A stretch of 33,778 bases of DNA from Actinomycetota bacterium. GTDB taxonomy: Bacteria > Actinomycetota > Humimicrobiia > Humimicrobiales > Humimicrobiaceae. The translations under genes and the position numbers were made by a program. This document shows, in pieces, positions 3,540 through 32,960 of this stretch (position 1 is the first letter of the stretch; the number at the start of each line of letters is the position of its first letter). The notes beneath the pieces are model-generated. The model was not told the DNA's origin and made no database searches. It worked only from the letters and a program-made list of their open reading frames with translations. The stretch lies in assembly GCA_013202875.1 (NCBI GenBank), contig JABMRD010000125.1:1-33778 (forward strand), read 5' to 3'.

Positions 3540-4798
3540 TTTAGGAACCCTTCATAATCCCTCATAGTAAGCTGGGACTCAAGTTGTCTCATAGTATCTA
3601 AAGCAACACCTACAGCAATAAGTATAGATGTTCCGCCAAATCTAAATGGTAGTCCCATATAGCTAATCAATACCTCAGGAAGAAGAGCAATTATTGCTAA
3701 AAATATAGCACCTGGTAATGTTATCCTGTTTAAAATATTCGTTAAGTAATCTGCTGTATTTTTTCCAGGTCGTAGTCCTGGTATAAATCCCCCGTACCTT
3801 CTCAGATTATCTGCAGTGTCCAGAGGATTAAAAGTAATAGCGGTATAAAAGTAAGCAAATATAATAATAAGAATAGTATAAGTAATGGCATAAATTGGAT
3901 TGATTCTTCCCTGTATAGTTGGGCTTAATGCATTAGCAAAGGATTGTATCCACCTGTTGGTACTAAATTGTGCAATTGTTGCAGGAAAAAGCATAACTGA
4001 TATAGCCAGAATTAGGGGCATTACTCCAGATTGATTAACTTTGAGTGGTATGTAAGTACTTTGTCCGCCAAAAACTTTTCTTCCTACAACTCGTTTTGCA
4101 TACTGAACAGGTATTTTTCTCTCACCTTGCTGAATAAGTATTACAGCTATAATTATACCAATAGATATAATTGCAAAAAGGGCCAAGAAGAAGTAATTCG
4201 TACCCCGCAGTTCGTATAGTTTTATAAGCTCCGCCGGTATTCTGGAAATAATACTGGCAAATATTATAAGTGAAATCCCGTTTCCTATTCCGTGGATATT
4301 TATCAACTCACCTAACCACATTATTAAAGTAGTCCCGGCAGTCAATGTAATAATGATTAAAGCAACATGCATAAAGTCAAAATTAGGTATGGCACCAAAA
4401 TTTCTAAAGAAAAAAACCATTGCAGTAGATTGAATCAGGGCCAGCCCTACAGTCATATATCTTGTTATTTGATTTATTTTCCTTCTGCCGGTTTCTCCTT
4501 CCTTTGCCAGCTGCTCCAGCCTGGGAATTACCACTTGAAGAAGCTGTATTACAATAGAGGCAGTTATGTAAGGCATAATACCAAGAGAGAATACTGCAAA
4601 TCTTCCCAGCGCTCCTCCTGAAAACAAATCCATCAAACCCATTACCCCGGTTTCAACCTGTTCCAAGATTTTAGTCGCATCTACTCCCGGCAGAGTAATA
4701 TTAGCACCAAATCTATAAATAGCTAAAATACCAATAGTGAATAATATTCTGTTTCTGACTTCTTTAATTCTAAAGGCACTTACAATAGCCCGGAACAT
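3536..4798 (-). CDS. secY: Preprotein translocase subunit SecY
   Basis: ORF 420 aa; SecY motifs GIGNGISLIIFASI, PLKVNQSGVMP, RYGGFIPGLRPGKNTADYL; 4-nt overlap with adk. Confidence 0.98.
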   Translation of the reverse strand: MFRAIVSAFRIKEVRNRILFTIGILAIYRFGANITLPGVDATKILEQVETGVMGLMDLFSGGALGRFAVFSLGIMPYITASIVIQLLQVVIPRLEQLAKEGETGRRKINQITRYMTVGLALIQSTAMVFFFRNFGAIPNFDFMHVALIIITLTAGTTLIMWLGELINIHGIGNGISLIIFASIISRIPAELIKLYELRGTNYFFLALFAIISIGIIIAVILIQQGERKIPVQYAKRVVGRKVFGGQSTYIPLKVNQSGVMPLILAISVMLFPATIAQFSTNRWIQSFANALSPTIQGRINPIYAITYTILIIIFAYFYTAITFNPLDTADNLRRYGGFIPGLRPGKNTADYLTNILNRITLPGAIFLAIIALLPEVLISYMGLPFRFGGTSILIAVGVALDTMRQLESQLTMRDYEGFLK

Positions 4799-5241
4799 TA
4801 AATCACCTCTACTTTTCCACCAGCTTTTTCAATTTTAGCTGCAGCGCTCCTGCTGAAATAATTGGCCCTGACAGTTATTTTTTTAGTAAGCTTGCCATTA
4901 CCCAATATTTTTACAGGATTTGACTTTTTCATAATAAGGCCATTCTTTTCTAAAAAATCATAGTCAACAACACTATCATCTTTGAACTTTTCTAACTGCC
5001 ACACATTAATTATATTATTTATTTTCTTCCTGGTATTTTTAAAACCTTTGAGATGCGGTAATCTCCTTTGTAGAGGCATCTGTCCGCCTTCAAAACCTAT
5101 TCTGGTTTTACCACCCGACCGGGACAACTGTCCTTTCGTGCCCCTTCCGCTGGTAGTTCCATGTCCGGAACCGTTACCTCTACCAACTCTTTTCCTTTTT
5201 TTTATAGACTCAGGAGATCTTATATCACAAAGCTTCACCAT
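4798..5241 (-). CDS. rplO: 50S ribosomal protein L15
   Basis: ORF 147 aa; RKRVGRGNGSGHGTTSGRGTKGQ, GGQMPLQRRLPHLKGF. Confidence 0.97.
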   Translation of the reverse strand: MVKLCDIRSPESIKKRKRVGRGNGSGHGTTSGRGTKGQLSRSGGKTRIGFEGGQMPLQRRLPHLKGFKNTRKKINNIINVWQLEKFKDDSVVDYDFLEKNGLIMKKSNPVKILGNGKLTKKITVRANYFSRSAAAKIEKAGGKVEVI

Positions 5242-5274
5242 TTTCTCCTTCCAATATTATCCAAACCCATAATA

Positions 5275-5769
5275 TTAATTAACTTCCGGTTCTTCTATCT
5301 TTCTCATACTCATAATCTGCTCCTGTGTTTTAAGCATCTTTAGACCACTAATAGTTGCATTAACTACATTTAAAGCATTGGCACTCCCTAATGATTTTGT
5401 AAGAATATCCTTTACACCAGCCAATTCCATTATTATTCTTACCGGCCCACCGGCAATTACTCCTTTACCGTGAGAAGCCGGCTTCATAAAAACATGGCCT
5501 GCGCCAAACCAACCATCAATTGGATGGGGTATGGTTCCATCAATCAAAGGCACTTTAAACATATTTTTCTTTGCATTGTTAACGCCTTTTTGGATTGCGG
5601 TTGAAACCTCGTTAGCTTTACCAAAACCAATACCAACCATACCATTCATATTGCCAACTGCTACCAGGGCGCTAAAGCTAAATCTTCTACCGCCCTTAAC
5701 CACTTTCGCTACTCTATTTATTTTTATAACCTTTTCACTTAATTCTGTATCTTTAGAAAGACCAGCCAC
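5275..5769 (-). CDS. rpsE: 30S ribosomal protein S5
   Basis: ORF 164 aa; [53 protein letters not shown]. Confidence 0.98.
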
Positions 5770-5793
5770 TAAACATCCTCCTTAAAAATAGGG

Positions 5794-6156
5794 TTAAAAT
5801 TTCAATCCGCCTTTTCTTGCACCTTCAGCCAGAGCTTTTACTCTGCCATGATACCTGTAACCACTTCTATCAAAAACTATTTCATTTATACTTTTCTTCT
5901 TTGCCATTTTAGCCAGGGCTTCTCCAGTCCTAAAGCTTATATCTATTTTCCCTTTATCTCCATCTTTGCTTTCAATTTTCTTGCTTGATATACCAACCAG
6001 TGCAGTGCCGGCGCTATCATCTATTATCTGACCGTAAATATATTTATTGCTCCGGTAAACAGAGAGTCTCATACGATTACTGCTTCTTTTAATTTTAAAC
6101 CTGCTTCTTACTTTTCTTCTTAAACTTTTATCCCTTTTTTCAGTTTTGCTCTTCAT
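5794..6156 (-). CDS. rplR: 50S ribosomal protein L18
   Basis: Part of track ORF 5794-6207; start refined to ATG 6156 (MKSKTEKRDKSLRRKVRSR...) preceded by AGGAGA. Motif RLSVYRSNKYIYGQIIDD. Confidence 0.95.
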   Translation of the reverse strand: MKSKTEKRDKSLRRKVRSRFKIKRSSNRMRLSVYRSNKYIYGQIIDDSAGTALVGISSKKIESKDGDKGKIDISFRTGEALAKMAKKKSINEIVFDRSGYRYHGRVKALAEGARKGGLKF

Positions 6157-6175
6157 GAAATCTCCTATAATAAAT

Positions 6176-6727
6176 TTAAGAACCGCTGGTAATACCTGTT
6201 TTACCAACTTTTCTTCTTATAACTTCATCACTATATTTTATGCCCTTACCCTTATAAGGTTCCGGTTTCCTTATACTCCTGATCTTAGCAGCCATTTCTC
6301 CAACTACCTGTTTATCTATTCCTTTAACCACAATTGTGGTATTATCCGGGACATCAAATGATATCCCTTGAAGAGGATTGACTATTACCGGATTTGAATA
6401 TCCTGCCAATATTTCCAGATCATTTCCTTTCTTACTGGCTCTAAAACCCACACCGACTATTATTAAGGTTTTGCTAAAACCGCTGCTTACACCTATAACC
6501 ATATTATTTATAAGGCTTCTATAAAGACCATATTTAGCTCTATTCTCATTACTCTTCGAAACTGGTATAACAATTAGCCTGCTATCTTTCATACTTAATT
6601 TAACAGAAGTGTTGTCAAACTTTTGAGAAAGCTCTCCTAATTTTCCTTTTACGCTAATATTATCCTTATCTATTTTGAGCTCTACTTCTTCCGGTACATC
6701 AATAGGTTTCCTTCCTATTCTTGACAC
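6176..6727 (-). CDS. rplF: 50S ribosomal protein L6
   Basis: ORF 183 aa; MSRIGRKPIDVPEEVE; KPEPYKGKGIKYSDEVIRRKVGK. Confidence 0.98.
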   Translation of the reverse strand: MSRIGRKPIDVPEEVELKIDKDNISVKGKLGELSQKFDNTSVKLSMKDSRLIVIPVSKSNENRAKYGLYRSLINNMVIGVSSGFSKTLIIVGVGFRASKKGNDLEILAGYSNPVIVNPLQGISFDVPDNTTIVVKGIDKQVVGEMAAKIRSIRKPEPYKGKGIKYSDEVIRRKVGKTGITSGS

Positions 6728-13841: not shown

Positions 13842-15050
13842 CTACTCAATTATCCTGGTAACACTGCCAGCTCCTATGGTCCTTCCACCTTCACGGATAG
13901 CAAACCTCTGCCCTTCTTCCATAGCTATGGGAAATATTAGTTTTATCTCCATTTCTGTATTATCTCCGGGCATTATCATCTCCACACCTTCCTCCAGGTT
14001 CACTACACCGGTCACATCTGTGGTCCTGAAATAAAATTGAGGTCTGTACCCATTAAAGAAAGGAGTATGACGTCCTCCCTCATCTTTGGACAGCACATAA
14101 ACCTGAGCTTTGAAATTAAAGTGAGGGGTAATAGAGGAGGGCTTTGCTATAACCTGTCCTCTTTCCACATCTTCTTTCTGTATTCCTCTAAGAAGAAGCC
14201 CTACATTATCTCCTGCCTGGGCATAATCTAAAAGTTTCCTGAACATCTCAACACCGGTTACCACTGTCTTTTGTATTTTAGGCCTTATTCCCACTATATC
14301 TACTGCCTCCTGCAGAGCAATTTTTCCTCTTTCAACCCTGCCGGTAACTACAGTTCCACGCCCGGTAATGGAAAATATGTCCTCTATGGGCATAAGGAAT
14401 GGTTTGTCTACATCCCTTACAGGTGTTTTTATATACTGATCCACTTTTTCCATAAGTTCTAAGATTGCCTTGCAGTCAGGGCAGGCGGCTTTATCCGTAC
14501 ATTCGCATTTCATTGACTTTAGCGCTGACCCCTTAATTACCGGTATTTCATCTCCCGGAAACTCATATTTGGTAAGAAGATCTCTTACTTCCATCTCTAC
14601 AAGTTCTATTAGCTCAGGATCGTCTACCATATCTACCTTATTTAAAAATACCACAATGTAGGGTACCCCCACCTGTCTTGCAAGAAGAATATGCTCTCTT
14701 GTCTGTGGCATTGGCCCATCTGCAGCAGATACTACAAGTATTGCCCCATCCATCTGGGCTGCACCGGTAATCATATTCTTTACATAGTCCGCATGGCCTG
14801 GACAGTCCACATGGGCATAGTGGCGGTTTACGGTTTCATACTCCACGTGGGCAATAGCTATGGTTATGCCTCTTTCTTTTTCTTCAGGGGCATTGTCAAT
14901 TGAATCAAATGTCCTTTCCTCTACATCTAAGCCTGAACTTTTAAGACACCTTGTTATAGCTGATGTAAGTGTTGTCTTACCATGGTCCACATGGCCTATG
15001 GTCCCTATGTTTATATGAGGTTTGGTCCTTTCAAATTTTTTCTTAGCCAT
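13842..15050 (-). CDS. tuf: Elongation factor Tu (with Cys-rich insertion in the G domain)
   Basis: ORF 402 aa; [36 protein letters not shown]; insertion [27 protein letters not shown]. Confidence 0.99.
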
Positions 15051-29390: not shown

Positions 29391-29702
29391 TTAAATCTTT
29401 GTCATCAGTTCCACTAGTCGTAAGAAGCCCAAATCAAAAACTCCCAGGATAATTGCAAAAATAATAATAGTAACTATAACTACTATAGTATAATTTAAAA
29501 GTGCTTTTCTGGTAGGCCAGGTTACTCTTTTTAACTCGTGTATAACATTCCTGTAAAATTTTGCAATTCTCGAAGGCAGTTTTTTTATAAATTGCTTCCA
29601 ATTTATTTTCTTCCTTGGCTGCGATGGGAGCTTTCTTTCCTGCATCTGCCTTTCCATTATTGCTTTCTTTTTATACTTTCTTGAAACTTTTCTTTTAGCC
29701 AT
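29391..29702 (-). CDS. secE: Preprotein translocase subunit SecE
   Basis: Track ORF 29391-29879; start refined to ATG 29702 (MAKRKVSRKYKKKAIMERQ...FYRNVIHELKRVTWPTRKALLNYTIVVIVTIIIFAIILGVFDLGF). The upstream part of the track ORF is the tRNA-repeat region. Confidence 0.95.
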   Translation of the reverse strand: MAKRKVSRKYKKKAIMERQMQERKLPSQPRKKINWKQFIKKLPSRIAKFYRNVIHELKRVTWPTRKALLNYTIVVIVTIIIFAIILGVFDLGFLRLVELMTKI

Positions 29703-29730
29703 TATAAAATTATCCTTTGCATTTTGACTT

Positions 29731-29752
29731 CTGGCAGGGCTGGAGGGATTCG
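29731..29752 (-). repeat. Duplicated 3' end of tRNA-Trp (T-loop/T-stem/acceptor/CCA)
   Basis: ctggcagggctggagggattcg is identical to 29895-29916, which covers the 3' end of the tRNA gene; 164-bp period. Confidence 0.95.
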
Positions 29753-29894
29753 GTCTTCCGTCTCGCTTTGCTCGCTGCAGAGCCGCGGACTCCCTCGTCT
29801 TCGACTCAGTCCGTCTTTTCGAATCCCGCAAACATGCCACTGGCATGTTTCCCCAAACTACCTCTACCGTACTCAACATTTTACGTATATAAAC
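29753..29894 (-). other. 142-nt structured intervening sequence between duplicated tRNA-Trp 3' ends
   Basis: Contains AAACATGCC-AGT-GGCATGTTT (9-bp perfect stem), CGGACT...AGTCCG, and GGGATTCG that pairs with CGAATCCC of the distal tRNA 3' copy. Confidence 0.75.
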
Positions 29895-29895
29895 C

Positions 29896-29972
29896 TGGCA
29901 GGGCTGGAGGGATTCGAACCCACAACACCCGGTTTTGGAGACCGGCGCTCTACCAATTGGAGCTACAGCCCT
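29896..29972 (-). tRNA. trnW: tRNA-Trp (anticodon CCA), 3' CCA encoded
   Basis: AGGGCTGTAGCTCCAATTGGTAGAGCGCCGGTCTCCAAAACCGGGTGTTGTGGGTTCGAATCCCTCCAGCCCTGCCA; 7-bp acceptor stem AGGGCTG/CAGCCCT, anticodon loop CTCCAAA, T-loop TTCGAAT. Confidence 0.97.
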
Positions 29973-30457: not shown

Positions 30458-30902
30458 TTATGGAGGATCCTTATTCCACAATCTAATCTTTTTTTTGAGT
30501 CTTTCTTTATAGGCCAGAGGCAGATCCATGATAATAAAACTATATTCATCTATATCAAACACACCATAATTTGAGCCACTATAGCATATTACAACATACC
30601 TTCCCCTCTCTTCTCTTTTCTTTATAGTGGATATAGTTTTTCTTGCTAAGTGCTGCATATCAGAGCAGACAAGATAAAACTGCAAGTAAAAACAATGGTG
30701 CAACTTCTTTTTTAACTCTTGGGCTTGGGTAGGTTTTTTCACAGAATGAAAAGAAATCAGAAGATAATAGATAAGAGAAAAACTCATCAACAAAGCCAAT
30801 TTGGCTAAAGGCTCCATTATCTATATTTCCCTCTTTAAGTGCTTTGTCTACTTTTGACTTATTCTGAGCATAGACAAAATAATTATTTCTCTTTTGGTTC
30901 AT
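30458..30902 (-). pseudogene. Fragmented transposase-like N-terminal region (two ORFs in different frames)
   Basis: MNQKRNNYFVYAQNKSKVDKALKEGNIDNGAFSQIGFVDEFFSYLLSSDFFSFCEKTYPSPRVKKEVAPLFLLAVLSCLL ends at a stop and overlaps an out-of-frame 119-aa ORF. The length is far below a complete transposase. Confidence 0.5.
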
Positions 30903-31227
30903 AGCTAGATGTTTTAATTTTTTTTATCATAGCTACCATCTCATAAATTTTTTTATCAATTTTATTTAGCCTTGCCATACGGGTGGTATACTTTCTGTAA
31001 TTTGTAACTCCCCTCTCTATATTATCTTCGTCAGCTCTTCTGACAAAGGTAAGCTTTGTTTTACCACCAACTTTTTTTGACAGATAATTAAATGGACCGT
31101 GTAGTTTTCCTCCAGAACATCTGCAATTTTTATTGCCGCATTTTTTATATACTGTATATATCGATCCTTCTATCATATCTCGTAGATTTAGAAGATAGTC
31201 TACTATTTTTTTCCTCTGCCCTTCCAA
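30883..31227 (-). CDS. Small Cys-motif protein of the type found beside transposases (DUF6788-like)
   Basis: ORF 114 aa; GSIYTVYKKCGNKNCRCSGGKLHGPFNYLSKKVGGKTKLTFVRR. The CGNKNCRC...HGPFNYL pattern is as recalled for that family; not searched. Confidence 0.6.
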   Translation of the reverse strand: MEGQRKKIVDYLLNLRDMIEGSIYTVYKKCGNKNCRCSGGKLHGPFNYLSKKVGGKTKLTFVRRADEDNIERGVTNYRKYTTRMARLNKIDKKIYEMVAMIKKIKTSSYEPKEK

Positions 31228-31524: not shown

Positions 31525-31607
31525 TATTGTCAAAAAATGTATATAACAATTATAAGAGGAAATTATTTATAGAAAAACTAAACTTTGTGCAAGGAGAAAA
31601 GGGGCAA

Positions 31608-32960
31608 GTGAAGGATAAATATGATCGCGTACGAATAATCCGAACTGCAAGAGATACAGATGACCGCATATCGGAAGTAGAAATCATAGAAATAGGGAGC
31701 AAAAAAGAAGAAAGTACGATTTCTGTTCAGATTGATCCCTATGAGCAACATCACTCTACATTGGGATTCGGTGGTGCATTTACAGAAGCAGGTGCATATG
31801 TTTTATCAAAAATAAACCGGAAAAAACGGCAAGAGGTTATTGAAGCTTATTTCTCTCCCTATCATGGACTGAATTATAGTCTTTGCAGGGTACACATGAA
31901 TAGCTGTGATTTCTCCCTGGGAAATTATTCATGCGATGATACCGATGGAGATATAGAATTAAAAAACTTTAATATCAACCGGGACCGGGAGTATCTTATT
32001 CCATTTATAAAAGATGCAATTAAGATATCGAAATCTCCTATTCGTCTGCTCGTTTCTCCCTGGAGTCCTCCCGCATGGATGAAAACAAATGGCAAAATGA
32101 ATTTCGGTGGCAGTCTGAAAAGAAAATATCTTGCAACCTGGGCTCTCTTTTTCTCTAAATTTATTCAGGAGTATGAAAAAGAAAATATTGCTATTTGGGG
32201 TGTATCGGTTCAAAATGAACCCCTGGCGAAACAAATATGGGAATCCTGCCTGTATACCGCTGAGGAAGAAAGGGATTTTGTTCGTAACCACCTGGGTCCC
32301 CTGCTTCAAAAAAACGGTCTTGCCGATAAGAAAATACTTATCTGGGATCATAATCGCGATCTTTTATATGAAAGGGCAAAGATAATACTATCTAGCCAGG
32401 AGGCTGCAAAATACATTTGGGGCATTGGATTTCACTGGTATTCAGGTGACCAGTTTGACAATGTTGCAAAAACTTACCATGATTTTCCCGACAAACACTT
32501 GCTCTTTACGGAAGGGTGCATTGAGGGTGGCGTAAAACTTGGTCAGTGGGATCGTGGTGAAATCTACGCACATAATATAATTGGAGATTTAAAAAATGGA
32601 ACTGAAGGGTGGATTGACTGGAACATGGTCCTTGACCATACCGGCGGCCCTAACCATGCAGGAAACTTATGTGATGCACCTATAATCATTGACACAAATA
32701 CTGGTAAAATACATTATCAGAGTTCGTATTATTATATCGGTCATTTTAGCAAATATATTCATACTGGAGCAAAGCATATCAGTTGCCGTTCTAACGATAA
32801 TAATCTGGAAATGATAGCTTTTTTAAACCCTGATAGCAAAATTATATTTATTGTATTAAATAGGAAAAATGAAGATATTGAATTTACACTTGAGTTAAGC
32901 GGATATTCAGTGCCCATTAAAAGTCTCAGACATTCAATTCAAACACTAATAATTGAGTAA
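31608..32960 (+). CDS. Glycoside hydrolase family 30 (glucosylceramidase-like)
   Basis: Track ORF 31527-32960; GH30 motifs LGFGGAFTEAGAYVLS, LLVSPWSPPAWMKTNGKMNFGG, WGVSVQNEP (acid/base Glu), LLFTEGCIEGG (nucleophile Glu). Start refined to GTG 31608 because AAGGAG is at 31591-31596 and the predicted transcription start lies downstream of or at the track start. Confidence 0.9.
   Translation: MKDKYDRVRIIRTARDTDDRISEVEIIEIGSKKEESTISVQIDPYEQHHSTLGFGGAFTEAGAYVLSKINRKKRQEVIEAYFSPYHGLNYSLCRVHMNSCDFSLGNYSCDDTDGDIELKNFNINRDREYLIPFIKDAIKISKSPIRLLVSPWSPPAWMKTNGKMNFGGSLKRKYLATWALFFSKFIQEYEKENIAIWGVSVQNEPLAKQIWESCLYTAEEERDFVRNHLGPLLQKNGLADKKILIWDHNRDLLYERAKIILSSQEAAKYIWGIGFHWYSGDQFDNVAKTYHDFPDKHLLFTEGCIEGGVKLGQWDRGEIYAHNIIGDLKNGTEGWIDWNMVLDHTGGPNHAGNLCDAPIIIDTNTGKIHYQSSYYYIGHFSKYIHTGAKHISCRSNDNNLEMIAFLNPDSKIIFIVLNRKNEDIEFTLELSGYSVPIKSLRHSIQTLIIE

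Follow-up and report, generated by a model that had tools for sequence, protein, structure and literature searches.

RtT RNA (Rfam RF00391; rttR of the E. coli tyrT operon) is the closest described counterpart of the sequence reported here. It forms units of similar size (156 to 178 bp) behind a tRNA gene, and these units end in the 3′ 18 to 19 nt of their own tRNA. RtT RNA is released from tyrT and other tRNA operons and affects the stringent response (PMC4986893), and strains lacking it, such as E. coli OV2, are viable (PMC12584984). Current classification treats it as an E. coli cis-regulatory or small RNA. Tyrosine-integrase elements and islands at tRNA 3′ ends likewise duplicate the 3′ part of the tRNA and leave the tRNA intact, and islands leave tRNA fragments at their attachment sites (PMC9897764). 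These islands, however, span kilobases, carry an integrase and have one att sequence per element. Furthermore, group II introns and the IS110 bridge-RNA elements choose their targets by pairing through a short guide segment borne on the element. Tail switching, in which the duplicated tRNA end changes with the host tRNA, was not found described in our literature search, the coverage of which was incomplete.

The present study concerns a stretch of 33,778 nucleotides (the window) in which the 3′ end of a tRNA-Trp gene is repeated around a short structured sequence. This unit is a new family of the RtT kind. Unlike tyrosine-integrase islands, it is about 160 bp long and gene-free, and its tail is switched with each tRNA. 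Unlike group II introns and IS110 elements, it lacks intron domains and a reverse transcriptase or recombinase gene and is bounded by a 21-bp target repeat; a guide role for its anti-T segment can only be proposed by inference.

The repeat between tRNA-Trp and secE

The features of the locus, with the evidence for each, are as follows.

29896..29972, minus strand: tRNA-Trp(CCA), the host gene, with CCA encoded (ARAGORN, Rfam RF00005, sequence check)
29909..29918, minus strand: T54-C63 of the tRNA (TTCGAATCCC), the stretch complementary to the anti-T (sequence; covariation across copies)
29896..29916, minus strand: first copy of the direct repeat, C56-A76 of the tRNA (sequence)
29732..29895, minus strand: whole repeated unit of 164 bp, comprising linker, H1, anti-T, core and tail copy (other copies; empty site in genome G008)
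29853..29895, minus strand: linker of 43 nt (similar behind different tRNAs)
29828..29852, minus strand: hairpin H1, GGAAACATGCC-AGT-GGCATGTTTGC (9 of 9 pairs vary on both sides among the copies)
29818..29827, minus strand: anti-T, GGGATTCGAA, complementary to T54-C63 of the host (sequence, covariation)
29787..29816, minus strand: helix H3 (RGAC...GUCY) with a variable loop (closing pair covaries, GC 44 and AU 27)
29753..29783, minus strand: helix H4/H5, with conserved CUCUGCAGCGA...GAGACGRAAGA (covariation GC 44 and UA 23, and AU 43 and GC 24)
29732..29752, minus strand: tail copy, a second C56-A76 of tRNA-Trp (sequence; the rule holds in related copies)
29391..29702, minus strand: secE, the next downstream gene, whose true start is probably 29702, ATGGCTAAAAG (Pfam SecE; start kept in relatives)

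The sequence CGAATCCCTCCAGCCCTGCCAG stands at 29895-29916 on the minus strand and again at 29731-29752 on the same strand, an offset of 164. Thus, the original prediction that a 22-bp tail of tRNA-Trp recurs 164 bp downstream toward secE is borne out. Of these 22 bases, exactly 21 (C56 to A76) derive from the tRNA, and the final G is an additional shared base. By our own estimate, about 3e-5 chance exact repeats of 22 bp are expected in 33.8 kb. An assembly error is ruled out because the same arrangement recurs at the orthologous tRNA-Trp of three separately assembled genomes (G001, G002 and G003) and about 150 analogous copies exist. The repeat is therefore real, neither chance nor an assembly artefact.

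On the minus strand, the tRNA-Trp gene is followed by the unit, secE and genes that we take, from their sequences, to be nusG, rplK, rplA, rplJ and rplL. Automatic ORF calling at 29391-29879 stretches SecE upstream across the unit and the tail copy, past the conserved start at 29702. This upstream extension of secE is the only sizeable minus-strand ORF in the unit, so the earlier view that it holds no credible ORF stands. A coding function was rejected, as the unit has no ORF of its own and the 162-aa ORF is SecE plus its upstream extension.

Structure of the unit

The linker is similar behind different tRNAs and therefore belongs to the unit. The anti-T, a 10-nt segment which the original prediction had overlooked, is the reverse complement of T54-C63 of tRNA-Trp. 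It also pairs with 8 nt of the downstream tail copy (helix H2); anti-T and tail copy thus form a closing helix that encloses H3 and H4/H5. In the refined structure, 95.3% of cells are paired and 20 of 25 pairs show changes on both sides (84 distinct rows). Over the same rows, the covariation score was 0.330 against 0.130 for shuffled and 0.03 to 0.06 for slid partners, absolute values that lean toward the related structure to which the alignment was fitted. The pairs missing from the original model (columns 50-128 and 133-200) came from a free column-pair search.

Comparison with RtT RNA

The original prediction assigned the unit to no named family. This holds for Rfam, none of whose models scored above threshold for the unit in the window or at the loci of other copies. 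It does not hold for architecture, where RtT RNA is a clear counterpart. In both families the unit lies directly behind a tRNA gene and ends in the 3′ end of that host. RtT units of E. coli, Salmonella, Klebsiella and Providencia stand behind tRNA-Tyr, tRNA-Pro(CGG) and tRNA-Lys, each with the matching tail. RtT also carries an anti segment that is complementary to its tail and depends on the host (GGGGAAGGAT for Tyr, (A)GAGGAT for Pro and GTGCAGG for Lys); the Lys units of E. coli use another complementary segment. Tandem arrays occur in both families, as 178-bp units in RtT and, for example, in genome G032 in the new family; the copy in the window is single.

In contrast to the new family, RtT additionally carries a copy of the 5′ strand of the T-arm. 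Its tail copy begins at about A58-T60, whereas that of the new family begins at C56. The hosts differ as well, being Enterobacterales and Pasteurellaceae for RtT and Actinomycetota for the new family. The RtT units inspected in Enterobacterales (L254-L264) contain a near-complete reverse complement of the T-arm and then a T-arm copy that is split; at Tyr, Pro and Lys they show changes specific to the tRNA.

RF00391 gave no match in the window at its gathering threshold (45 bits) and none in the loci of carriers at E values up to 5 and 3, while true RtT loci score 47 to 137 bits with it. Conversely, our covariance model R1 of the new family found no significant match in RtT (best E 0.12). Because the two families' covariance models fail to recognise each other, we speak of a likeness of plan rather than of homology, which is undetectable in their sequences.

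That a second family, unrelated in sequence, obeys the RtT rule behind tmRNA and at least 21 isoacceptors points to tail-copying repeats as a general class. The matched variation at tRNA, anti-T and tail copy makes the choice of target directly testable, in the RtT of E. coli as well. Such repeats also break assemblies and leave partial tRNA genes in annotations. Weak sX4 matches were seen to overlap tRNA-Ser.

Distribution among relatives

Model R1, built from seven copies, matched in 24 of 61 relatives, all in the family of the window. A second model, R2, made of the core only with the refined structure, gave about 150 matches, spread over 24 of the 40 genomes of the class; these too all belong to this family (f1). 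Copies are thus present in 24 of 35 family genomes (the Ca. Hydromicrobium/Humimicrobium lineage of the Actinomycetota), and the covariance model search found none in the other 11 of 35. In a draw of 347 genomes of the phylum, R2 gave nothing credible outside the family. The exact core pattern occurred in 81 stretches among 85,462 species genomes, all from MAGs labelled Ca. Hydromicrobium, Ca. Humimicrobium, Actinomycetota/Actinobacteria/Actinomycetes or simply "bacterium". In these searches, the unit is confined to one family of Actinomycetota.

The lone weak match in the phylum outside the family (G351, E 2.9e-4) was rejected as a GC-rich repeat with no tRNA. This repeat (GTCGTTGAGCGAGCGAAGCGAGACGAAACG, L273, 1100-1260) lies away from tRNAs, and its likeness to helix H4/H5 is one of chance. 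A viral origin was also rejected, the core pattern being absent from the viral contigs searched (viral_contigs).

Within its own genome, blastn found further copies behind Arg-ACG, Leu-GAG, Ser-GGA and Ala-GGC, each with the tail of its own host. The search proposed at the outset, for copies behind other tRNA genes with the 3′ ends of those tRNAs, was therefore successful. Those behind Ser-CGA and Ser-TGA are incomplete, either through truncation or because the contig ends within them. An orphan copy (contig C133) has neither an upstream tRNA nor hairpin H1, and it has an apparent orthologue in G001. On contig C16 (L021, 10141-10544), a unit behind tRNA-Leu is fused after AAAAGACGG straight to tRNA-Ala; this is probably a deletion, judging from the complete unit and spacer at the equivalent place in G001. 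In another copy, on contig C80, the tail is that of tmRNA, a gene located 1.4 kb upstream on the far side of an integrase remnant. Between tmRNA and its unit (L006/L020, about 4200-6400) are a tyrosine-integrase C-terminal remnant and a lipoprotein-like ORF, and a RelE-like toxin/antitoxin pair follows the unit; the region looks like a decayed island at tmRNA.

Tail copy and anti-T across the family

A tRNA or tmRNA on the same strand ends within 400 nt upstream in 126 of the 148 matches examined. Of the remaining 22, most begin near a contig end, yet a tRNA tail still terminates them. First units begin 33 to 52 bp past the CCA in nearly all cases, and later units follow at multiples of the unit length. 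The hosts comprise at least 21 tRNA isoacceptors and tmRNA, including Trp, Ala, Arg, Leu, Ser, Asp, Lys, Glu, Pro, Tyr, Gln and Met.

In 97 of 118 scored copies, the tail copy is identical over all 21 nt to the tRNA in front of it. The mean identity over all 118 is 19.9 of 21, compared with 13.6 after shuffling of the tRNAs. Among the matches examined, no intact unit was seen to carry a foreign tail. Since each tail copy matches C56-A76 of its own host, the tail appears to be taken from the target at each insertion, leaving the tRNA intact.

In 105 of 118 copies, the anti-T is a perfect complement of T54-C62 in the host tRNA (mean 28 and maximum 42 in 2000 shuffles of the tRNAs), counts left as computed even though a few of the 13 imperfect scores are parsing errors (e.g., L089 Arg and L097, cores read GAAAGAGCGG). 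At position 59 the pairs A-T, G-C, C-G and T-A are all present and G-T is nearly absent; the complementarity stops at position 62 or 63. That the anti-T is a copy of the 5′ strand of the T-arm was rejected, as it is the reverse complement, for example in the Ala and Leu copies. A few copies have a tail copy that differs from the tRNA. Here the anti-T agrees with the tRNA in some (G003 Trp and G001 Pro), with the tail at the differing base in one (G003 Ala) and with neither in the others. On these small numbers, such mixed behaviour is as expected if the anti-T is not kept up after insertion.

Probable gain and spread of copies, and their decay

Ten relatives in the family have tRNA-Trp before secE with no unit. 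In G008, tRNA-Trp is followed directly by the secE leader, which matches the sequence past the tail copy of the window; therefore, the 164-bp unit is a block difference. On the sequences compared, this difference is most simply read as a gain.

Linker, hairpins and core sort by genus and not by tRNA. On a tree of 104 units (anti-T and tail excluded), genus changes 14 times against 56 when shuffled, and tRNA identity changes 49 times; the tree has few columns, and its single forks are weak. Near-identical units stand at different tRNAs within one genome with tail and anti-T switched. For instance, the Arg-ACG and Ser-GGA units of G029 differ at 8 of 162 positions outside anti-T and tail and at 7 of 21 within the tail, and the single change in their anti-T matches the tail switch. 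Tandem repetition is seen in G032, where three near-identical units lie at tmRNA, Gln and Leu loci. Arrays of identical tandem units with a truncated last unit are common, and decayed and 3′-truncated copies are frequent.

In one genome (G011, contig C126, L140, around 1364-1491), a group II intron seems to be inserted in a unit just past hairpin H1. It has a domain V/VI-like 3′ end (CTACTCGATT) and a reverse transcriptase with one in-frame TAG. Group IIC introns insert behind stem-loops, as this intron appears to.

Nature of the unit

Taken together, these findings make it probable that the unit represents a mobile repeat of the RtT kind, structured and non-autonomous, with insertion sites behind tRNA and tmRNA genes. 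As in mobile elements of this sort, many dispersed copies lie in flanks independent of the element, orthologous sites occur empty, and the terminal repeats derive from the target. Of the origins offered by the original prediction, a non-autonomous tRNA-targeting repeat gains support from the copies behind other tRNA genes, each with the 3′ end of its host. The scar of an excised element finds none, as a structured core recurs about 150 times with covariation.

How the element moves can be sketched. A folded transcript or single strand would pair through the anti-T with the T-arm of the tRNA gene. A staggered cut, between U55 and C56 on one strand and past A76 on the other, would then give the 21-bp target duplication, a step suggested by the end points of the repeat alone; the anti-T spans the U55/C56 end point. 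The element would finally be copied in behind the tRNA gene. Alternatively, the anti-T may not choose the target and may instead be rewritten from it during or after insertion, and we regard guidance of insertion by the anti-T as possible but rather doubtful. Equally tentative is the wider proposal that RtT and the new family, whether unrelated or diverged long ago, represent a single class of tRNA-tail mobile RNAs. In that view, a short segment complementary to the T-arm would guide insertion behind tRNA and tmRNA genes, copying would regenerate the tail and host enzymes would supply the chemistry. If true, this would amount to a programmable mobile element, about 160 bp in size, with no protein of its own.

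In carriers such as G018 and G020, neither reverse transcriptase nor Y1 transposase nor TnpB was detected; in carrier G006 the first two were likewise not detected. Among the genomes examined, none of these proteins, nor tyrosine recombinase, showed a useful correlation with the unit, and tyrosine recombinases, being present in every genome examined, are uninformative. No mobilising enzyme was thus found among them, each of the first three escaping detection in some of the good carriers; the enzyme may belong to the host. An autonomous version of the element was not found.

The best surviving alternative, which we nevertheless consider unlikely, is an RNA that serves the host and is kept under selection. 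Its anti-T would pair with the tRNA T-arm or the tail copy and so switch tRNA maturation or downstream expression, here of secE-nusG. The strong covariation of the unit structure and the complementarity of the anti-T to tRNA and tail copy alike would suit such an RNA, as would RtT, a released RNA tied to the stringent response (PMC4986893). However, an RNA under such selection is hard to reconcile with the 11 of 35 family genomes in which no copy was found, the common unit-free orthologous tRNA-Trp loci and the many truncated or decayed copies. Moreover, where tRNA and tail differ, the anti-T consistently tracks neither, and RtT loss is tolerated by E. coli OV2 strains (PMC12584984). The original suggestion of an RNA offering the tRNA an alternative 3′ half may hold, but the truncated and decayed copies and the empty sites speak against a needed host function.

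Next in order, and likewise improbable, is vertical inheritance with gene conversion. Here, units of a single origin behind several tRNAs would be homogenised within each genome and selection would restore the anti-T, with no active mobility. The clustering of units by genus speaks for this, and linker subfamilies do endure at orthologous tRNAs within a genus; gene conversion with re-adaptation of the anti-T could mimic part of the pattern. It accounts poorly for the clean block difference at empty orthologous sites and for the close similarity of units at different tRNAs whose tails are fully switched, and the foreign tail copies expected from conversion across the tail were not seen.

Far less probable is that the unit is what remains of an attachment site for tyrosine-integrase islands targeting tRNA 3′ ends, although the repeated part spans T-loop to CCA, as is usual for such sites, and the tmRNA-linked copy adjoins an integrase C-terminal remnant. 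Conservative recombination at a new tRNA would leave the donor tail, which was never seen. Furthermore, the units are about 160 to 200 bp with no integrase (none lies between the repeats of the 164-bp unit), one covarying core recurs behind many tRNAs, and several carriers have just two tyrosine recombinases, as expected for XerC/XerD. A decayed second tRNA gene or an assembly error, for which the repeated tail itself is the sole argument, is refuted by the absence of tRNA features ahead of the tail copy and by a structured core conserved in about 150 copies, which come from independent assemblies, and its probability is negligible.

Other observations in the window

A long exact direct repeat links an internal stretch at 13842 with the contig end from 33649 onwards, near an ORF for a LacI-type regulator. 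The window also encodes a DUF6788 protein (Pfam PF20586), whose small family has no known function, at 30883-31227 and a Glycosyl hydrolase family 30 protein at 31527-32960.
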